Origin: Brevinematales bacterium
GTDB lineage: Bacteria > Spirochaetota > Brevinematia > Brevinematales > GWF1-51-8
Assembly (NCBI GenBank): GCA_020059465.1
Contig: JAGVBZ010000008.1
Coordinates: 1 to 64,000, forward strand
DNA: 64,000 nt
Direction of reading: 5' to 3'
Shown here: positions 42,992-55,198 of the stretch, piece by piece
Layout: every line of letters starts with the position of its first letter
How positions within the stretch are numbered: position 1 is the first letter of the stretch
Notes under the pieces: generated by a model
The model's input: only the letters and a program-made list of their open reading frames with translations
What the model was told of the DNA's origin: nothing
The model's database searches: none
Position numbers and translations under genes: made by a program

Positions 42992-43630
42992 ATGATGAAG
43001 AAATGGATATCATTCGGTCTGATTCTGGGGGTTCTGAATACGGCGGTCTACCGCCCCGCGTTCGCGTTTTTCGCGGACAGTTCAGCGCAGTCTTCGGCGC
43101 AATCATCCAGTCAGTCTTCGGTAGAATCGTCCAGCCAATCGTCGAGCGACTCATCATCGAAGTCATCCGAACCGTCAGTAAGTGTGACGGTTACTTTATT
43201 GGTATTGGTAGTGCTTGCGGCGACAGGTTTGATTATTTGGGGTATCAGCACCACAACCGGAAGCGGCGGCGAAAAGAAGCCGAACCCGCAGGTGGAAGTC
43301 AGTATTCTTGTCGACGAAGCCGCGCGCATAAACGGTCATAATCTCGACGTACTCTCCAGGGTCTATGCCCTCGATAAAACGGTAATCGCGGGAATTATCA
43401 TGCAGGGGTATCTCGATCAAAAGATTTCCGCCGCCACTCCCGAATCAGCGGGCGAATCGATAGTATTTCTCTCGGAGTCATTGCTCTCGAAATCGGTCGA
43501 ACTGAACGGAACACAGCCCGCTGTTATTGAAAAACTGAAGAACGATCCGGCAAAACTTCAGGCGATTATGAGCGCGATGGAAGAAAACAAATCGCCCAGC
43601 GAGATCATGAGTATGGTTTTCGCGTTCTAA
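42992..43630 (+). CDS. Ser-rich single-TM protein, paralogue A
   Basis: Signal peptide, SSAQSSAQSSSQSSVESSSQSSSDSS tract, TM, conserved DEAARINGHNLDVLSRVY domain; GGAGG RBS. Confidence 0.75.
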   Translation: MMKKWISFGLILGVLNTAVYRPAFAFFADSSAQSSAQSSSQSSVESSSQSSSDSSSKSSEPSVSVTVTLLVLVVLAATGLIIWGISTTTGSGGEKKPNPQVEVSILVDEAARINGHNLDVLSRVYALDKTVIAGIIMQGYLDQKISAATPESAGESIVFLSESLLSKSVELNGTQPAVIEKLKNDPAKLQAIMSAMEENKSPSEIMSMVFAF

Positions 43631-43820: not shown

Positions 43821-44528
43821 ATGAAAATGAAAAAAGGAATATGCATCGGGCTAATTATTGCATTATTGAATATGTTTGCAGTCTTTCCGGGAAGTGCGTA
43901 CGGCCTGATCGGCGCGGATTCCTCGGCGCAGGCATCCTCGCAGTCATCGGTAGATAGTTCCGTGCAATCCTCATCCGAATCATCGACCGACGGCTCCAGC
44001 AGAGCGTCGAGCGAGCAGTCCAGCCAATCGTCTACCCAGGCATCGAGCGAAGCCTCATCAAAATCATCCGACTCCTCGGGCAGCGTCAGCACTACGCTTG
44101 CCGTTATCCTGGTTATCGCGGGCATCAGCTTGATTATCACCGGAATCCTTACCACATCGAAAAACGTAAAACCTAAGCAATCGCCTCAGGCGGAGATCAG
44201 CCTTTTAATAGACGAGGCCGCCCATATCAACGGACATAATATCGACGTGCTGTCAAAGGCGTACAATCTCGATAAACAGACTGTCTCGGAAGTTATCATG
44301 CGCGGTTATCTTGACGGAGAGATTAACGCGAATACGCTGCAGGCGGCGGAGCACTCCCAGAAATTTCTCAGCGAAGCCCTGCTTTCGAAGTCTATCGAGG
44401 TGAACGGGGTTACACCTGCGGTGATCGAAAAACTCCAGAACAGCCCGCAGGCCGCTGAGGCGTTGAAACAGGCGTGGGAGGAGAATAAATCCCCCGGCAT
44501 CATGATGCAGATACTGTTCGCATATTAA
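43821..44528 (+). CDS. Ser-rich single-TM protein, paralogue B
   Basis: Same architecture as 42992-43630; DEAAHINGHNIDVLSKAYNLDKQTVSEVIMRGYLDGEI. Confidence 0.75.
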   Translation: MKMKKGICIGLIIALLNMFAVFPGSAYGLIGADSSAQASSQSSVDSSVQSSSESSTDGSSRASSEQSSQSSTQASSEASSKSSDSSGSVSTTLAVILVIAGISLIITGILTTSKNVKPKQSPQAEISLLIDEAAHINGHNIDVLSKAYNLDKQTVSEVIMRGYLDGEINANTLQAAEHSQKFLSEALLSKSIEVNGVTPAVIEKLQNSPQAAEALKQAWEENKSPGIMMQILFAY

Positions 44529-45969: not shown

Positions 45970-46398
45970 TCAATTTCCGTCGTTGATGAAAACGAGTTTA
46001 TTGCCGCGATAGACGTAATTTTTAATTATGGAGATTTTCAGATTCATATCGTTGATAAATAGACGAAGCCCGTTATCGCCGGTCTGTTCCGCAATGATAT
46101 ACGTGTACGGCGATTCGGTCTGGGTTTTCAGGTGGAGGATTTTCATCCCGAGGTCATAGATATAAGTACTGTACTCGTTTCGCCGGTCCTCATGGGGCGA
46201 CTTCAATTCGAAGCTCCGGATCAGCGTATCGACAATATCCCGATGCTCGATAGTCCGGACTCCGGATTCGTCCTTAGCGGGAAGATATGCTTTCGTACGT
46301 ATCCGGCTGAATTCCCCGAGTTCGTTATCCACCGCTTTCAATGTGGTTTCCAACAGCAATTCTCCCCTCCGCGATAACGTAGATAACCCTTTTTCCAT
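45970..46398 (-). CDS. hypothetical protein
   Basis: 142-aa ORF with GGGGG-type RBS and plausible codon usage. Confidence 0.55.
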   Translation of the reverse strand: MEKGLSTLSRRGELLLETTLKAVDNELGEFSRIRTKAYLPAKDESGVRTIEHRDIVDTLIRSFELKSPHEDRRNEYSTYIYDLGMKILHLKTQTESPYTYIIAEQTGDNGLRLFINDMNLKISIIKNYVYRGNKLVFINDGN

Positions 46399-46441: not shown

Positions 46442-46739
46442 TTATTTCCCAAAGAAACTATTCTTATCATTCCCGCCGGAATTATTTTCTTCATAATCGT
46501 CCGTGCTCCAGTCCCATTCGTCCTCGTCCTTGATTTTGTCAATCTCGCCGCCGGAATCATCCTCGGTATCTCATATCAAAAAGCCGAACGCCTCCGCCAA
46601 GGTTGCCGCCGGTTTCTACTTTCCGCAGTAGAATACCTTGCCCGCCTTTTTTAGCTAAGCCGATCGGGAAACTCCCTGAGTTTAGCCCGGAAAATTTCCC
46701 TTCATCCCTGCCGTCAATAAAAAGTACGACCTCGTTCAT
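46442..46739 (-). pseudogene. possible frameshifted small gene with acidic C-terminal tail
   Basis: ORF 46557-46739 (MNEVVLFIDGRDEG...) is followed in the +1 frame (46442-46570) by TEDDSGGEIDKIKDEDEWDWSTDDYEENNSGGNDKNSFFGK*, which lacks its own ATG. Confidence 0.3.
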
Positions 46740-46819
46740 CGTTGCCCGAATATGATTCGGAAATATGTCTTAAGTCAGATAATACCCTTTACTAAAGATT
46801 TTGTCAAGTTCGCTCAGTA

Positions 46820-48037
46820 TCAGGGGTTTCCCATCACTCCCATGAAGAGCAAAGTACCCGTCTCACGGTCGATAATCGCATAGAGGAACGGCCTGTCGCA
46901 GATCATGCGGAACAATTTCTGAGGGGGTTCAACAGCAGTCTTTGTGATATGTATCGCGGTGACAGCTGACGCCTCGCTTCCCTTCTCATTGACGACTATC
47001 TTCGCTTTCTGCTTGATCTTGGATATAAAAAGGTTTTCCCCATCGACCATTTTATCGAATCCGCCCGCGAAGGCTGCGGGCATTCCCAGCGCGCTCATGG
47101 TTTCTTTCAGATCTATGTCGGACTCGGCTGTAAAACGGGGCATGCCCATCTCGCATTTTTCAATCACCATACCGGAGAGAAGCTTGTTCCATTTATCTGC
47201 GCCGAACGAACTCACAAACGCGGACATGTCGCTTCCCATCGCAGGCAGAACGACGACCATCGCGAATTTTTCCTTACCGTAGTCCATCATCACCGATTGG
47301 AATTCTTTTTCCTCGTAGTACGGCAGTTTCGCCTGCATATACATCATCTTTACCGTCTTTTTCGTTTTATCGAAGCATGTGAAAGGGAGATCGGCGGTCA
47401 TCACTTCCGGGAACGGTTTGACCCATGCCCCCTTAAAATAGACCGCGTTGAGAATCAGCACGCTCAGCCCGCCGGGAATCTGTTCGATAATCGATTTTAT
47501 CATTCCCTTCGTGGCCGCATCCACCCAACTGTTGATGCGCCCGACCATACCGGGATCGTCGGGATTGATTACCGCCGTCTCGGCGTTATAAAAAGTTTTT
47601 ACATTCTTCTCATACTCCTTCTGAAGAGTGTCGCCCTTCATTACCCACAGCGAATTTGCGATGGATAAAACAGTATCGGGGTCTCTGTTCAGCAGGGCGT
47701 ACATCAGGTAACCGATGTTTGTATGGATCGCCGCCAATCCGGCATCCCCAAATCCCATCACGTTTTTCATCTGGGACAGGGTGTCTCCCGACGCGCCTTC
47801 AAGAGCGCATGATACCGCGAACGAAACCGATACGGGCGATAGAATTATATTTTTCCCCGGCGATGCGGAGTAAAGTTTCTTGAGCAGGTTCCAGCCGAAA
47901 TCCTGCTGTCCTTTGAGTATCTTCGCATCCAGCTTCGCCGATTTCCACTCCGGCGAGACCGCCGACCCGTTGGCGCACCCCGCTAAAACCACTGTAAGCA
48001 TTATCGCTGTTATTATGCCCGTAGATAGCTTTTTCAT
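46820..48037 (-). CDS. serpin, lipoprotein
   Basis: MKKLSTGIITAIMLTVVLAGC lipobox; serpin motifs LILNAVYFKGAW, hinge VNEKGSEASAVTAI, CDRPFLYAIID. Confidence 0.92.
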   Translation of the reverse strand: MKKLSTGIITAIMLTVVLAGCANGSAVSPEWKSAKLDAKILKGQQDFGWNLLKKLYSASPGKNIILSPVSVSFAVSCALEGASGDTLSQMKNVMGFGDAGLAAIHTNIGYLMYALLNRDPDTVLSIANSLWVMKGDTLQKEYEKNVKTFYNAETAVINPDDPGMVGRINSWVDAATKGMIKSIIEQIPGGLSVLILNAVYFKGAWVKPFPEVMTADLPFTCFDKTKKTVKMMYMQAKLPYYEEKEFQSVMMDYGKEKFAMVVVLPAMGSDMSAFVSSFGADKWNKLLSGMVIEKCEMGMPRFTAESDIDLKETMSALGMPAAFAGGFDKMVDGENLFISKIKQKAKIVVNEKGSEASAVTAIHITKTAVEPPQKLFRMICDRPFLYAIIDRETGTLLFMGVMGNP

Positions 48038-48113
48038 AAATCCTCCAAAATCGCATGATATCAATACTACGTTATTTTCCTATGCCGATAACAAAGTTTG
48101 TTTCCTCGCAGGA

Positions 48114-49214
48114 TCAGGGGCGGGTAATCCGTGCCGCGATTAACGGTATCCCGAATACATCGTCATTTAAAATAAGGTAATATGTCCTATCGCATACCAG
48201 GGAGAATTCCGGTATGCGGGGGATGCCGCGGAATGACACCGCCGCAGCTGTTACCGATGCCGCCATCGTACCCGCTTCGTCTACCGATAAAGTGTTCCGC
48301 TGAACTATGCGGTTCACGTTCAGCATCCCGGCGGGATTAATCCCGGTAAGATCGGCGTCCCGCGAAAACAATAATTCGAGCCCTGACTTTTTCAATATCT
48401 GATCCGCGTTTATTTCATTTGAAACCGATACGCGCGGCGTAAGAAACTCCCCGAAGGAAACGGTCTTCGGGAACGGAATACCTTCGCCGAGAACCGCCGG
48501 GAAGATCTCGTCGCCGGAAACTCCCTGAGAGGGCACCAGAAACGACATAGAAAACCGGCCCCCGGTATACTTCAGCCGGACAGCTCTGTACGCTGTATTC
48601 TGACAGTATTCCATTTCGTCTCTGAGGCGCATCATATCCACCCGGGCACGCGAACCGTCGGGATAAATAAAATCACCCGGACAAGTTTCCCCGTTCCGGA
48701 ACGGCGTCTCCCATTGCCCGGCGAAAAGGATCGAATTGACCATCACCATGACTTCATCCGGCATTAGAACACGTAATACTTCCGTGATCCTGCCGTCCGT
48801 ATTTTCGGACGCCCATCTATTGATTTTCAGAAGGGTTTCTTTATCGAAGGCGGCGCAATCGGCGAAAAACCGGTAATCTCCGCGGACAGTGCCCAGGAAA
48901 TCATCGGATACCTGAAAGGAGTCTTTGATCAGAATTAGATTGGCGAGCGAAAGAAGCGATTCGCTTGCCCGCCGCGACGGGAATGATAAAAAACGGTTCA
49001 TTTCGCCTCGAAAGGATTCGGGCGAATTAATTCCGAGGAATGAACGCAGCGCACCGGCAGTCGCGCCGGCCGCGCCTTCGCTCAACGCGGATAAAAGAAC
49101 GAATATTCCGAATGGGGAAAATACCGAATTGCCGTTATCAGCACTTTGAAATAAATGACCCGCTAGAATAGACGCGGCTGACGAAACGGCGCGGAAAACC
49201 CCGGACTGATTCAC
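48114..49214 (-). CDS. serpin without evident signal peptide
   Basis: GTG start at 49214 preceded by GGGAGGTGACG; VMVNSILFAGQWETPF, hinge VDEAGTMAASVTAAAV, CDRTYYLIL. Confidence 0.85.
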   Translation of the reverse strand: MNQSGVFRAVSSAASILAGHLFQSADNGNSVFSPFGIFVLLSALSEGAAGATAGALRSFLGINSPESFRGEMNRFLSFPSRRASESLLSLANLILIKDSFQVSDDFLGTVRGDYRFFADCAAFDKETLLKINRWASENTDGRITEVLRVLMPDEVMVMVNSILFAGQWETPFRNGETCPGDFIYPDGSRARVDMMRLRDEMEYCQNTAYRAVRLKYTGGRFSMSFLVPSQGVSGDEIFPAVLGEGIPFPKTVSFGEFLTPRVSVSNEINADQILKKSGLELLFSRDADLTGINPAGMLNVNRIVQRNTLSVDEAGTMAASVTAAAVSFRGIPRIPEFSLVCDRTYYLILNDDVFGIPLIAARITRP

Positions 49215-49233
49215 TACAGCGTCACCTCCCGGC

Positions 49234-51225
49234 TCATTCCGTGATCTTCGACAGCACCTTACCCAACACTTCGGCAAAAAGCCGAAGTATCGCTATATAA
49301 TCGTCACTCCAATTCCCCGTAGAACGGGTATTGTCGACGCCGACAAAACCTACGATATTTTTTCCGCGCCGGATAGGGACAACCGCCAAGGATTTTATAT
49401 TCTGCGAATTGAGTATATTCTTCTCCGATTCGGCATCGGGAGGAAGTTTCGATACATCTTCGATGATGATATTCTCGCCCTTTTTAATACGTTCATTCCA
49501 CCAGGGAAAACTTAACGCATCAAGGTTTTTCAGATTATCGATCTGCTTTTCCACACCCGGGGCGCACCATTCGTGGGTATTATCCAAAAAGCTGCCGTCG
49601 GTATTAATCATAAATACATATACGCGGTCGGCGGTGATAAAACGGCCTAAGTCTGCCAGTGACGCATTGATGGCGGTATCGATATCGGGAACCCCGATAT
49701 AATGCGATAAAACCGAAGAAACCGTACGCTCGAAATCGAACCAATGCTTCATCGCCTCCTTTGCCTTCAGTTCATCGGTAATATCCCTGACCGCAGCCAC
49801 GCGGAGAATCCTTCCGCGGTACTTCATATTCCGGCCGTTCGCCTCAGCCCAGAATACGGAATCGTCCTTCCGGAGCAGTTTCAACTCAAACGGCTTATCA
49901 TATCCCCCTTCGATCAGCTTCTGCACCCGTTCGCGGTCGTCCTCGGCGATAATCCGGTATATATTCATACCTAATAATTCATCCAATTTGTATCCCGTCA
50001 TTCTCGCGTAACTATCGTTGACATCGATGATTTTCTGGTCCATATGCAGCACAATTCCTTCATGAGATGCCTGCGCGAGTTTCTTATAACGGTCTTCGCT
50101 ATGAAGGTAGGCGCTCCGTGTCCGCAGTTGGACGATATACAGCACTCCGAACGCGATCAGTAGGCCCAGTATCCCCGCTCCGATCAGCCAGACCAGAATT
50201 TTATTCTGTTCGTAGAACGATAGCGGACGGTTGACGATCACGCTGTTTTCAGGGATTTCGGATAACGGTATGAAGAATTTCATCAATTGCCGATAATCGA
50301 ACATATACTGGTTGATATCTTCCTGCAGCACGGGAATATTGGAAACGCTCTCCCCGTTCAGTATTTTTATCGCCATCTCGGCGGCCTTTTTTCCCTGCTG
50401 GAATCCGCTGGTCACCAATCCGCCGACTACCCCCTTTCCGAGATAGAAGTCCCACACGACATATACCGGGACAGTGCTGGCCTTGGAGATCATTTCCCCG
50501 CTTTCGGTATAGCCGTAATTAACCCCGGCTTTATCCCGGTTGAATGTCAGGAGCAGAACGAGAGTATCGGGCGTCAAACCTCCGAGTTTTTCCAGCAGGT
50601 CCTGCATTGTCAGATCGTCCATGAATAGGAATTCAACCTGATTCTCGAATAACGGAATCACCTCCTGCATTCGCTTGAGGTTTCCGATACCGGTCGTGGT
50701 TTTATCGTTCACAACAATGATTTTTTTAGCCAGAGGATGCAGTTTCAGCATTATCCTGATAGTCCCGCCGAGGTCGTACTCTTCCTCGATGCCCGTGAAT
50801 AACAGGTTATTCCGAAGTTTAGAGGGATCGAGATAATTCACACCGCAGAACACGACCGGCGTACCCGGAAACAACTTGGGCTGACGTTCCAGCAGAAAGT
50901 TAAAAGCGTCGTCGTCCGAGGAGATTATAACGTCAAAATGCTTATTCTTGAATTTTTTCTGAAATATATCATAAAGCTGGTTGAGGTATCCCGGCGAAAA
51001 ATAGCTTTTCGTATCCATATACTCGAAATGAAATAGAATATCGGAGTACTCGGAATTTGCCAGCGTATTCAGTATGCCCATCGTTATATTGTCAGTCCAT
51101 TCCAAACCCTGACTATATGAATGCAGAACAAGGATTTCCTTATGTCCCTCAGCCGCCGATGCATACCCTAAAGGATAGGTTAGAAGGAATGCGCCGATGA
51201 TTAAACGAAAGAGTTGCTGTCTCAT
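49234..51225 (-). CDS. sensor protein: periplasmic ABC-substrate-binding-like domain, TM, PAS, GAF; no output domain
   Basis: Signal peptide; KEILVLHSYSQGLEWTDNITMGIL...FCGVNYL periplasmic-binding pattern; TM LVWLIGAGILGLLIAFGVLYIV; PAS IIDVNDSYARMTGYKLDELLGMNIYRII; GAF KSLAVVPIRRGKNIVGFVGVDN; stop follows directly. Confidence 0.8.
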   Translation of the reverse strand: MRQQLFRLIIGAFLLTYPLGYASAAEGHKEILVLHSYSQGLEWTDNITMGILNTLANSEYSDILFHFEYMDTKSYFSPGYLNQLYDIFQKKFKNKHFDVIISSDDDAFNFLLERQPKLFPGTPVVFCGVNYLDPSKLRNNLLFTGIEEEYDLGGTIRIMLKLHPLAKKIIVVNDKTTTGIGNLKRMQEVIPLFENQVEFLFMDDLTMQDLLEKLGGLTPDTLVLLLTFNRDKAGVNYGYTESGEMISKASTVPVYVVWDFYLGKGVVGGLVTSGFQQGKKAAEMAIKILNGESVSNIPVLQEDINQYMFDYRQLMKFFIPLSEIPENSVIVNRPLSFYEQNKILVWLIGAGILGLLIAFGVLYIVQLRTRSAYLHSEDRYKKLAQASHEGIVLHMDQKIIDVNDSYARMTGYKLDELLGMNIYRIIAEDDRERVQKLIEGGYDKPFELKLLRKDDSVFWAEANGRNMKYRGRILRVAAVRDITDELKAKEAMKHWFDFERTVSSVLSHYIGVPDIDTAINASLADLGRFITADRVYVFMINTDGSFLDNTHEWCAPGVEKQIDNLKNLDALSFPWWNERIKKGENIIIEDVSKLPPDAESEKNILNSQNIKSLAVVPIRRGKNIVGFVGVDNTRSTGNWSDDYIAILRLFAEVLGKVLSKITE

Positions 51226-51517
51226 ATGGCCCCCAAATAGAATAATCCTATTTCATCCCTTTCTTACATACTTTAACCCCAAAGGGCTTGAAAGTCAACA
51301 TTTTTTTCGTTGTTTATAACCTGATCGACTAATAATCATCAGCTTCCCGAATAAAAGAATTCAAACCTGTTTTTATCCACTATCAAACTTTTCTCACCGA
51401 TTTCAACGGCATATTTCTGAGATTTTTTATAGGGAAATTCCAATACTGTTGTCTTGTTGTAAAACGTCCCTCCGATAGAAGGTACCGGAAAAAAACGAAA
51501 ACATAGAAATCCCGCAA

Positions 51518-53317
51518 TTAATACTGTAGGCCCTTCCAGTCGCGTTTTTCGTCGTAGAAATAGGATTCGTAGATTTCGAGCAGGTTGTGTTTCAGGTCGG
51601 TTTTAAGGACTTCCTCGATTTCCTGCGGAGTGCTCATGTTCTTCACACTGTCCCACAAGGCCCGGGTATCGTTCGTATTGGACTTGAGGACTATAGTTTT
51701 TACCAGCGGAATGTACGCCGGGTTGATACTGAACCTTCGCAGCCCCATTCCGAGCAGGAGACGGATGTAAAGAGGATTACGCGCGATCTCGCCGCAGACC
51801 GACAACGGCGTATGATTCCTGCGGGCGTTGTGGATAGTCAGGCGGATCAGGTACAATACCGCCGGATTGAGCGGCTGATAGAACTTTGCAACCGACTGGT
51901 TGTTCCTGTCCACCGCGAGCGTGTATTGAACAAGATCGTTCGTGCCGATGCTGAAAAAATCCGCTTCCTTCGCGAGCTTGTCGGAAAGAAGCGCAGCCGA
52001 CGGTATCTCGATCATAATCCCGACAGGAATATTATACTTAAACGGCTTGCCCTCGCTCTTGACTTCGCTCTCGCACTGCTTGAAAATTTCCTTCACCCTG
52101 CGTACTTCGTCTATACAGGATATCATAGGGATCATGATCTTGACATTATCGTTGAATACGCTCGCGCGGATGATCGCACGAAGCTGCTGCTTGAATTTAT
52201 CCACTTCCTTCAGGAATACGCGGGTCGAACGCCATCCGAGGAACGGGTTCGGATCACGCGCCACATTATCGTTAATAAAGAACTTATCTCCCCCGATATC
52301 GAGGGTACGGATAACCACTTCCTTTTCCTGAAAGAGAAGGAGGAATTCCTTGTAAAGCTCGAACTGTTCGACTTCCGAAAGAAACTTCTGGCTCGCGATA
52401 AACGCTAATTCCGTACGAAAAAGCCCGATCCCCTCCGCGCCGTGACGCCGGGCAATATTAAGATCCATATTATTGGATACGTTGGCATATATCTGCACAT
52501 CCTCGCCGTCGTAGGTTTTCGACGGGAGCGCGACGACCTGGAATATTTCCTTTTCTTTCGCGTTATACGCGGCCTTGATATGCTGGTAATCCCCGCGCGT
52601 GTTCTCGTCGGGGTCGATGACCACCATCCCCTTGTATCCGTCCACTACTATCTGATCTTTCTTTTTCACATAGGAAAGCAGGTCTTTGATCCCGAATACC
52701 GCCGGAATTTCCAACGATTCCGCGATGATCGCGGCATGCGACGTCGTACCGCCTGACTCGGTGGCAATCCCCATCACATAGTCCTTGGGGATATGGAGTA
52801 CTTCTGCGGCGGATACTTCCTCCGCTACCAGAATAATCGGTTCCTGTATCGCCGACAGATCGATGTCGCCGAAAAGTTTCCGCAGGATGCGGTCGGCAAT
52901 CGCCTTAAAATCGAGATAACGACTCTGGAAATACTCGTTTTCCAGCTTGTCGAATTCCCTTTTGATATTTTCAAGCTCGAATACCATCGCCACATCGGCG
53001 GGATAAAGCTGGTTCTTTATTGTCTCAGGCACCTGTTTGTTGAATAATTCTTCGTCGAGGAGGAGGGAATAAAAGGATATGATCTGGGCGTTCTGCTGAT
53101 TCATCTGCTCGGGATTTCGTTTCTTGAGGGATTCGATCTCCTCGCGCACCTTTGCGATCGCGTCCCGGTACCGCTTCACCTCAGCGTCGACCTGGGATTC
53201 GTCAATCCGTGCATTATAATGCACGCTTTTCATGACATCGTGTCGTATCAGCACATTTCCTATAGCGATTCCTTTTGAAATGGGAATACCCCGCAAGGAA
53301 TACAATGTATCCTCCAT
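51518..53317 (-). CDS. ptsI: phosphoenolpyruvate-protein phosphotransferase (PTS enzyme I)
   Basis: GIATESGGTTSHAAIIAESLEIPAVFG phosphohistidine motif; GIGLFRTE; DIGGDKF; SIGTNDLVQYTLAVDRNN; VCGEIA. Confidence 0.95.
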   Translation of the reverse strand: MEDTLYSLRGIPISKGIAIGNVLIRHDVMKSVHYNARIDESQVDAEVKRYRDAIAKVREEIESLKKRNPEQMNQQNAQIISFYSLLLDEELFNKQVPETIKNQLYPADVAMVFELENIKREFDKLENEYFQSRYLDFKAIADRILRKLFGDIDLSAIQEPIILVAEEVSAAEVLHIPKDYVMGIATESGGTTSHAAIIAESLEIPAVFGIKDLLSYVKKKDQIVVDGYKGMVVIDPDENTRGDYQHIKAAYNAKEKEIFQVVALPSKTYDGEDVQIYANVSNNMDLNIARRHGAEGIGLFRTELAFIASQKFLSEVEQFELYKEFLLLFQEKEVVIRTLDIGGDKFFINDNVARDPNPFLGWRSTRVFLKEVDKFKQQLRAIIRASVFNDNVKIMIPMISCIDEVRRVKEIFKQCESEVKSEGKPFKYNIPVGIMIEIPSAALLSDKLAKEADFFSIGTNDLVQYTLAVDRNNQSVAKFYQPLNPAVLYLIRLTIHNARRNHTPLSVCGEIARNPLYIRLLLGMGLRRFSINPAYIPLVKTIVLKSNTNDTRALWDSVKNMSTPQEIEEVLKTDLKHNLLEIYESYFYDEKRDWKGLQY

Positions 53318-53437: not shown

Positions 53438-55198
53438 TTAATGGATTAGGAACGCGATACTGAAGGTGCTTCCCCTGCCGTATTTGCTTTTTAGTCTCAC
53501 CGAACCACCGTAGTATCCGATGAATGTTTTCACCATATATAACCCAAGCCCAGCGCCCCACTCGTTGAATGACGCGGATTCCTCGGTGCGGTAGAACTGC
53601 CCGAAAATGCTCTCGAGTTCCTTCTCCTTGATTCCCTGCCCTGTATCGATGATATCCACCAACAGGTATTCGTCTTTCTTGTACCCGCGAATATCAACCA
53701 TTCCATTGGGTTTATTATAGAAGATAGCGTTGGAAATCATCTCATCGAGTATCGTCCGGATAACAGTCTCATTGCCGAGGAAATTCTGGAATTCGGGCGA
53801 GAAATTCATCGTTATTGTCACTTTGCGTTTTTCACGCTCCTCGCTGTGCCGGTCGATGATCTCGCGGCACAGCCGCGCGAAATTCACCCTGTCGGCGAAC
53901 AGGTCTTTCACTTCCTGCTCGATCGATGTAATGGTCAGCACTTTATTTACCGTGTTATCGAATTTGTTGACCTGCGCAAGTATCCTGAGAAGCCCCTTCT
54001 GTTTCATATCGGGACTCATCGTCGTATCGTCGATCAGTTTCTGAATCTGTTTCTGAATATTCGCGACCGGTTGGGCAAGGTACTCGGATACATGGCTCAT
54101 GAATTGAGTCTTTAAATTTACCAGCTTCAGCAGTTCGTCGTTCTGCTTCCGGATACGTTCATAGAGCGCGGTGTTATTCACCGATATGGACGCCTGTGAG
54201 GAAAATATCTCCGCGACTTCCAGATCGAGATGCTTAAAAGTATCGCTGTCGGAGATAGTGTCCAGGTAGATAACACCCAGCGTCTTATCCTCGTAGGTCA
54301 GAGGGATGCATATGATGGATATATTGTAGTTCTTCCGCCCGATGCGGACCTTCTGGTTGACAATCAGTTTACTTCTTTTCGAACGGATCACCTCGTCGAT
54401 CACTCCCGATGAGAAGCGGAACGATTTTTTCGCAAGGTCGCGGAGTTCCAGTTTATAGAGACTCTCGGGCTTCAGCTCAACATCGTTCGATATAAACAAG
54501 ACCCCCCGCTGCGCGTTCAGGGACTGCACAAGACTGCGGAGTATTTTATCGAACAGGATATCCTCGTCCATCAGCGAACTGATGGAATGATTGATCTCCA
54601 ATACATTTCGAAGCGCGGTATCGCGTTGGGCAAGTTCCCGCATAGTAAGTTCGGATAGATGCTCGCGCGCCTGAATAATTCTCTGAGCCTCCTGACGTTC
54701 GATATCGGTCAGGTATTGAAGATTCTCCTGCGCCTTTACCGTGTCCACCGCAGAACGCTTTTCACGGTCTGATAGCTCAAGTATCTTCTGCTGAGCTTCG
54801 ATTACCTTCTCCCGCTCAATCCTCTCCTGATCGCTCAGCATCTCGACGCTCTCGAGCGCCTTTATTGTGGCCTCGGCCTGAATTTTTTCCTTGACCGCGA
54901 GGCCGTGCAGACTCTCGTGCGCGCGGATCACATCTTCCGCGTTCTGGATCTCCTTCACCATGTACTCGCGGATCAATTCCTGCGCGCCGATGATTTCGTC
55001 CGCTTCTTTCCGTTCTTTTGCCGCCAATGTCGCGAGCGCGTTATATGCCTCGGAAACTTTTTCGAGATGTATAATATAGTCGTCCTTTGTCTTCATGATA
55101 CTGCTCAGACGCTTTATCTCGTTTTCCTGTTCCATGATTTTTTTCATTAAGTCCCTAGGACCGTTCCCAATTGTCCCGGTTTTCGACTTTTTCGGCAT
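53438..55198 (-). CDS. coiled-coil/GAF histidine-kinase-like protein with HATPase_c domain
   Basis: N-terminal helical repeats; GAF; dimerisation helix FMSHVSEYLAQPV; N box DEMISNAIFYN; G1 DTGQGIKEKEL; G2 GAGLGLYMVKTFIGYYGG. Confidence 0.88.
   Translation of the reverse strand: MPKKSKTGTIGNGPRDLMKKIMEQENEIKRLSSIMKTKDDYIIHLEKVSEAYNALATLAAKERKEADEIIGAQELIREYMVKEIQNAEDVIRAHESLHGLAVKEKIQAEATIKALESVEMLSDQERIEREKVIEAQQKILELSDREKRSAVDTVKAQENLQYLTDIERQEAQRIIQAREHLSELTMRELAQRDTALRNVLEINHSISSLMDEDILFDKILRSLVQSLNAQRGVLFISNDVELKPESLYKLELRDLAKKSFRFSSGVIDEVIRSKRSKLIVNQKVRIGRKNYNISIICIPLTYEDKTLGVIYLDTISDSDTFKHLDLEVAEIFSSQASISVNNTALYERIRKQNDELLKLVNLKTQFMSHVSEYLAQPVANIQKQIQKLIDDTTMSPDMKQKGLLRILAQVNKFDNTVNKVLTITSIEQEVKDLFADRVNFARLCREIIDRHSEEREKRKVTITMNFSPEFQNFLGNETVIRTILDEMISNAIFYNKPNGMVDIRGYKKDEYLLVDIIDTGQGIKEKELESIFGQFYRTEESASFNEWGAGLGLYMVKTFIGYYGGSVRLKSKYGRGSTFSIAFLIH

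Follow-up and report, generated by a model that had tools for sequence, protein, structure and literature searches.

The locus described here raises the question of which proteases two serpins might inhibit when their genes lie behind that of a sensor with no output domain. To our knowledge, few bacterial serpins have an established natural target. The locus was analyzed in a window of 64,000 nucleotides from a Brevinematales bacterium, a member of an uncultured genus of spirochaetes. On its minus strand, the sensor gene (49234-51225), the serpin A gene (48114-49214), and the serpin B gene (46820-48037) followed one another in this order. A preliminary description had proposed this cluster, and all of its coordinates were reproduced, including the 19-nt gap between the sensor stop (ending at 49234) and the GTG start of serpin A at 49214. 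GGGAGGTGACG was found within this gap. The conservation of gene order, which had been proposed as a check, was confirmed in G002 and G003, both assemblies of the same genus that span the locus, and the sensor-to-serpin A spacing was 19-22 nt in the window and these relatives. Furthermore, a PTS enzyme I-type protein identified by Pfam (51518-53317, minus strand) served as the synteny anchor in the neighbourhoods of all four genus genomes. The search of the 3.19-Mb genome returned serpin A and serpin B and no other serpins.

The sensor consisted of 663 residues with a signal peptide, a periplasmic ABC_sub_bind-like domain, one transmembrane segment, a PAS domain, and a GAF domain. The Pfam matches were ABC_sub_bind at 45-321 (1.6e-10), PAS at 389-484 (9.7e-15), and GAF at 514-656 (1.2e-11); the same search gave no domain past GAF and no output domain. 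The orthologues shared 80% (G002), 64% (G003), and 83% (G001, partial at a contig end) identity with it. The C-terminus lay at an identical position in the complete sensors of three species (the window, G002, and G003), and HisKA/HATPase was absent from all three. The lack of an output domain is therefore real, because the sensor stops after GAF in all three species. The earlier claim that HisKA, GGDEF, EAL, or any other output domain is missing was thus in agreement with our result, but the word truncated was not, since this output-less sensor is a stable form. An assembly error as the source of this end was ruled out by the three species, which end alike at 80% and 64% identity. No response regulator gene was adjacent to the sensor. 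A kinase-like gene was observed two genes upstream (53438-55198), and its H-box appeared altered by eye.

Serpin A (366 aa) matched PF00079 over nearly its full length (2.1e-60), and no signal peptide was read in its sequence. Its AF2 model had a pLDDT of 85, and the best PDB matches were native serpins with TM scores of 0.8-0.9; the structure of AtSerpin1 (3le2) was among the structural matches. The hinge EAGTMAASV fits the inhibitory Glu-x-Gly-Thr/Ser type, in which P12-P9 are small residues. Moreover, residues 318-330 formed the sole internal low-confidence loop of the model, and a count of 17 residues from the invariant hinge Glu placed the predicted P1 at Arg329 (codon 48228-48230, minus strand) inside this loop. 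From the domain, the hinge, and the mobile loop, serpin A is predicted to be an inhibitory-type serpin. The F-R-G around the predicted P1 was invariant in the three species, whose serpin A sequences were only 44-64% identical. Arg occupied this position in one of 20 further serpins from the phylum, and Lys in three. Arg or Lys at P1 is equally suited to trypsin-like serine proteases. The single-protein search of genome contigs with serpin A found no relative.

Serpin B, a lipoprotein of 405 residues with its ATG at 48037 and GGAGG upstream, also matched PF00079 over nearly its full length (3.6e-94), and its lipobox LAGC was read straight from the sequence. The hinge EKGSEASAV likewise fits the Glu-x-Gly-Thr/Ser type, and serpin B is predicted from domain and hinge to be of the inhibitory type. 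Lys was invariant at loop position 16, and the 17th position was Thr, Ser, or Gly, so that the P1 of serpin B is uncertain. These features support the first description of a sensor-serpin-serpin cluster, here shown to be conserved, in which one inhibitor is exported and the other apparently is not. The identity between serpins A and B was about 20-24%, and they did not group in the tree, where serpin A occupied a long branch. A recent tandem duplication was rejected on both counts.

A candidate target of the serpins was suggested by the genomes themselves. In G002 and G003, a fourth gene of the cluster, on the same strand and directly behind serpin B, encoded a caspase-family (C14) protease, of which the window has a relic only; the pairing in the two species was counted as one evolutionary event. 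The enzyme, predicted to be exported, carried a lipobox and matched PF00656 at 1e-12 and 3e-11. The family had four members per genome, and the lipobox Cys was found only in the operonic one, as in serpin B. The Gly-His-Gly, the Asp-x-Cys-Ser, and a downstream Glu were invariant in 20 homologues. In addition to the caspase fold, the architecture included a beta-domain and an acidic tail. By fold, its nearest matches were MALT1, a paracaspase specific for Arg, and a Geobacter homologue; the sequence search of the PDB gave no match. By its sequence, the protease is assigned to the bacterial C14 enzymes of the orthocaspase type, with a predicted His-Cys dyad and a p20-like domain. The acidic residue at Cys-2 was also invariant. 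Acidic S1 residues, including Asp at Cys-2, are used by MALT1 and metacaspases, and Arg/Lys are the residues after which C14B enzymes cleave (PMC4357240; for orthocaspases, PMC6426788). Cleavage after Arg/Lys was predicted from the conserved Asp-x-Cys, and the protease is probably basic-specific. PADLOC detected no described anti-phage system, and the protease gave only a weak generic caspase match (1.4e-7).

In the window, a relic of this gene was recovered at 46442-46778 (minus strand) by blastn, genome search, and tblastn. The break in blastn collinearity indicated that about 1.08 kb was deleted near 46760-46778. The C-terminal tail (46442-46730) persists with its frame broken, one piece lying at 46590-46730 and the other, in a second frame, at 46442-46570. 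These pieces matched the protease in the genome search at E values of 2.0e-9 and 7.8e-5, with a stop; joined, they gave a tblastn E value of 1e-19. This remnant also ruled out that the gene is missing through an assembly error. Judged by these alignments, the operonic protease is deleted in the window lineage, with its relic at the ancestral place. Three standalone paralogous proteases were still present elsewhere in the genome. A near-consensus sigma-70 promoter, TTGACA-17-TATTAT (46779-46807, minus strand, 11/12 matches), is retained in the window and fronts the protease gene in the relatives, where the junctions read TTGACA/TATTAT in G002 and TTGACA/TATCAT in G003 with the same spacing. Given this strong promoter of its own, the co-transcription of the protease gene with the cluster is only putative. 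A 142-aa ORF without assigned function (45970-46398, minus strand) lay directly downstream of the protease in G002 and had no clear homologue at the same place in G003. At the other end, a putative operon promoter, TTGACT-17-TAAAGT (51270-51298, minus strand), lay upstream of the sensor in a block conserved in G000 to G003. A divergent metalloprotease-like gene was present upstream of the sensor in G002 and G003 and missing from the window. The sole match to a remnant of it (E 2.7e-5) was rejected, because it was conserved promoter DNA read in the over-long 5' extension of the G003 ORF.

The sensor and both serpins remained under purifying selection after the loss of the protease. All three ORFs were intact, and in comparison with G002 their dN/dS values were 0.09-0.15 with no relative-rate excess. 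Since the three genes were not loosened, the operonic protease was not the sole target, unless the loss is recent. Other targets, perhaps the paralogous proteases, are likely.

The cluster resembles a protease gene bundled with the genes of its inhibitors, because in the sister species it ends in a caspase-like protease gene. That sensor, serpin A, serpin B, and protease form such a unit is our tentative reading, to which we give a little less than an even chance. We infer the serpin-protease pairing, the P1 specificity, and the compartments as follows. In the ancestral form, kept in G002 and G003, the genes would encode, in order on one strand, a membrane sensor, serpin A for the cytoplasm, and two lipoproteins of the envelope, namely serpin B and the protease, the last cutting its substrates behind Arg/Lys. 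Enzyme activated ahead of export would be caught by serpin A, which would thereby guard the cytoplasm, and protease in the envelope would be kept in check by serpin B. Both serpins would act in the usual manner of suicide substrates, with a basic residue as bait. We also infer the role of the sensor, which, without enzymatic output of its own, may make the expression of the inhibitors or the control of the protease depend on a ligand in the envelope, via a partner protein. In the window lineage, the operonic protease has been deleted and the serpins and sensor have been kept, probably by virtue of an additional action on the three paralogous proteases or other trypsin-like enzymes. The fuller picture, in which inhibition in two compartments under an output-less sensor makes the plant and algal serpin-metacaspase pairing self-contained in bacteria, and in which one lineage has naturally lost the protease but retained its inhibitors, is possible and on the doubtful side. 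If it is true, the control of metacaspases by serpins would have its counterpart in bacteria, and the locus would offer a simple system in which to study the function of bacterial caspase homologues. G002 and G003, with the protease, can be compared with the window, which lacks it.

Across the phylum, C14 proteases occurred more often in genomes with serpins (24/33) than in the others (150/360; Fisher p 8e-4, uncorrected for phylogeny). In other genera of the phylum, no C14 gene was found beside the single serpins at 8 loci (14-19 kb around) or at 16 further loci (1.5 kb each side). Similarly, no serpin was present within the fetched flanks of protease-family loci from Cytophagales, Ignavibacteriae, Draconibacterium, Poribacteria, and another spirochaete.

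The preliminary description had proposed a protease-defence or protease-regulation module. Its regulation half was strengthened by the ancestral protease gene in the cluster, and the generic foreign-protease defence was not favoured by the neighbourhood. A defensive sensor would detect a signal in the envelope that marks proteolytic attack, two broad serpins would be raised in response, and the caspase-family neighbour would be independent and merely adjacent. This would suit the persistence of serpins and sensor without the operonic protease and the promoter that the protease carries. However, the sensor has neither a kinase or other output domain nor an adjacent response regulator, serpin A without a signal peptide could hardly meet outside proteases, and the sole lipoprotein of the protease family stands right behind the lipoprotein serpin in both sister species. 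We regard this explanation as rather unlikely. Less probable still is that the clustering reflects shared expression only, with serpin A as a cytoplasmic housekeeping inhibitor, a role proposed for prokaryotic serpins (PMC8233489), and serpin B as an envelope inhibitor with an unrelated job. The low identity of the two serpins and their separate places in the tree are consistent with it, but the conserved order and tight spacing argue against it, as does the basic residue that both serpins conserve close to the predicted scissile bond. Decay of a functionless window locus, to which the deleted, frame-broken protease gene and the absent metalloprotease-like gene might point, is highly improbable in view of the intact, constrained ORFs and the retained P1 Arg and hinge.

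The proposed protease with cognate inhibitors can be compared with known systems. Miropin, tengpin, and other bacterial serpins have the fold and inhibitory hinge in common with the serpins here; in the literature found, none is linked to a protease of its own. Within the open-access literature searched, no paper describing a serpin/caspase-family protease pair of such a kind was found. In Bifidobacterium breve, the serpin locus adjoins a signal-sensing protein, as here (PMC8012564). However, B. breve possesses a protease-inducible two-component system, whereas an adjacent histidine kinase with a response regulator was absent here, and the locus has instead an output-less sensor, a second serpin, and a protease. 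Orthocaspases and bacterial C14 enzymes have the His-Cys dyad, the Asp-x-Cys, and the caspase fold in common with the operonic protease and its paralogues. The operonic one differs from them in being a lipoprotein that has a beta-domain, an acidic tail, and serpins encoded alongside it. In the staphopain-staphostatin, SpeB-Spi, and Bacteroides C10 operons, the gene of an exported cysteine protease likewise lies beside that of its inhibitor, whose proposed task is to inactivate, in the cytoplasm, enzyme that has become active too early (PMC3462683). Those proteases are papain-like with small dedicated inhibitors, whereas here a caspase-family protease is accompanied by two full serpins, one of them exported, and a sensor. 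In plants and algae, serpins inhibit basic-specific C14B proteases, AtSerpin1 of Arabidopsis acting on AtMC9 and AtMC1 and CrSERPIN on CrMCA-I (PMC10609998). These pairs are eukaryotic and non-operonic with measured inhibition, whereas the inhibition proposed here concerns a candidate target encoded beside its putative inhibitors.

The minus-strand genes for the sensor (49234-51225), serpin A (48114-49214, GTG start) and serpin B (46820-48037, LAGC lipobox) were reproduced with the starts and ribosome-binding sites of the preliminary description. Both serpins matched PF00079 over nearly the full model length and were the only serpins in the whole genome. Serpins were found in 33 of the 393 genomes of the phylum and are thus uncommon in it. 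Among these genomes, an intact adjacent serpin pair was seen solely in the window's genus.

Conservation of the three-gene order was confirmed in the same-genus genomes G002 and G003, with identical order and strand, the cluster standing behind ptsI and a kinase-like gene. Their sensors were 80% and 64% identical, respectively, to that of the window, which consists of an ABC_sub_bind-type periplasmic part and a TM helix, followed by single PAS and GAF domains. This sensor had been called truncated, and indeed ends after GAF without an output domain. However, its C-terminus lay just past GAF in all three species, and its paralogue in the window's genome goes on with second PAS, HisKA, HATPase and receiver domains; therefore, the short sensor is a stable form without output. 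The contig of a third relative, G001, stops inside the sensor gene, and the serpin region lies beyond its data. Upstream of the sensor, a promoter-like TTGACT-17-TAAAGT block was the conserved part of the region in all four genomes. Promoter-like sites there were no more numerous than in shuffled sequence, so the evidence for this block is its conservation, not its consensus match. Two genes upstream, 53438-55198 (minus strand) encodes a cytoplasmic coiled-coil, GAF and HATPase kinase-like protein kept in the genus, whose H-box (SEYLAQP) lacks, by eye, the usual His; this protein may be a kinase that has degenerated, or else one with which the output-less sensor works. Furthermore, G002 and G003 carried a secreted, divergently transcribed metalloprotease-like gene (HExxH, LIC13305-like; NCBIfam 2.6e-18) between ptsI and the sensor (L022:6548-7711 and L023:6697-8031 in their loci, minus strand), which was absent from this interval in G001 and in the window's genome (51226-51517).

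In G002 and G003, serpin B was followed by a lipoprotein of 459-465 aa with a caspase domain (PF00656, 1e-12 and 3e-11). The window copy of this gene is a relic. DNA collinearity with G002 was lost at 46778 and regained at 46760; relative to G002, the window lacks about 1.08 kb. The C-terminal part survived as two out-of-frame pieces, ending in NSFFGK-stop against DHFFGK-stop in the relatives. The near-consensus promoter TTGACA-17-TATTAT (TATCAT in G003), which precedes the protease in the relatives, was still at 46807-46779. Three protease paralogues, with exported-type N-termini and no lipobox Cys, were present in each of the window's genome, G002 and G003, all distant from serpins. Four caspase-family genes stood in tandem on one strand in a Poribacteria MAG (L096:9656-14593). 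In addition, 42992-43630 and 43821-44528 (plus strand) encode small exported Ser/Gln/Ala-rich proteins with SSAQSSxQSS repeats, of which the window, G002 and G003 have two or three tandem paralogues.

The serpin P1 was predicted by a 17-residue count that starts from the hinge Glu, an invariant residue. In serpin A it was Arg in 3/3 species, within a Phe-Arg-Gly that was invariant although the orthologues were only 44-64% identical; among 20 other serpins of the phylum, Arg occurred at this position in one and Lys in three. The P1 of serpin B was uncertain, because position 17 was variable (Thr/Ser/Gly) and an invariant Lys lay one position earlier. For serpin A, the AF2 prediction (pLDDT 85) had one internal low-confidence stretch, 318-330, the reactive loop with Arg329, and its best PDB matches were native serpins, tengpin and miropin among them. 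The protease model (pLDDT 72) showed a caspase core, a beta-domain and a disordered acidic tail, with MALT1 and a Geobacter homologue as best structural matches; GHG, DxCS and a downstream Glu were invariant across 20 homologues. In paracaspases and metacaspases, whose cleavage is after Arg/Lys, an Asp at Cys-2 and other acids are assigned to the S1 pocket (PMC4357240), and the orthocaspase cut follows a positively charged residue (PMC6426788). A match between serpin bait and protease pocket is therefore plausible, though inferred. Trypsin-like enzymes would suit the same bait.

A very unusual bait loop was found in G020, another genome of the phylum, which is a single contig of 3.53 Mb. Its serpin (L024:6616-8352, minus strand) has the reactive-centre loop split by a Hint/bacterial intein-like domain of about 157 aa (PF07591 2.5e-15), potentially self-cleaving or splicing, with junctions ...EEGTEAAAATKVEVG/CFPSG...GILVHN/KGAASPEPVLF... 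In seven other genomes of the class, matches covered the Hint part only, in other proteins.

A protease packaged with its own inhibitors was the best-supported reading of the cluster. Of the suggested protease-defence or protease-regulation module, regulation fits better with the protease encoded with the cluster in relatives, and generic defence against foreign proteases is the less favoured of the two. Protection of the cytoplasm would fall to serpin A, which lacks a signal peptide, whereas serpin B, like the operonic protease a lipoprotein, would work in the envelope; the sensor could set expression via a partner protein. With the window compared against G002, Nei-Gojobori dN/dS was 0.09 (sensor), 0.15 (serpin A) and 0.13 (serpin B), rough ratios because synonymous sites were near saturation. 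With G003 as outgroup, the window had not gained significantly more lineage-specific changes than G002 (41 v 30, 28 v 22 and 18 v 27). The inhibitors show no visible relaxation after loss of the protease. That serpins and sensor were kept would be accounted for best by an action of the serpins on the paralogous proteases as well. C14 proteases were commoner in serpin-bearing genomes of the phylum (24/33 v 150/360, p 8e-4), also without the serpin-bearing members of the window's genus (21/30 v 149/359, p 0.0035), both comparisons ignoring phylogeny and genome size. No serpin-C14 linkage was seen outside the genus within the flanks examined.

A search of an open-access library turned up no account of a bacterial serpin that shares its locus with a caspase-family protease. 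The pairing stands as a clearly testable hypothesis, and the window's lineage, where the protease is gone, provides a natural control. Inhibition of metacaspases by serpins is documented for plants and for one alga (PMC10609998), and such plant pairs cover part of the serpin-C14 pairing. Staphostatins and Spi, supposed to guard the cytoplasm, resemble serpin A in this proposed protection (PMC3462683). Some of this cluster's features are likewise present in protease-inhibitor operons, and some in the sensor-serpin locus of B. breve (PMC8012564).
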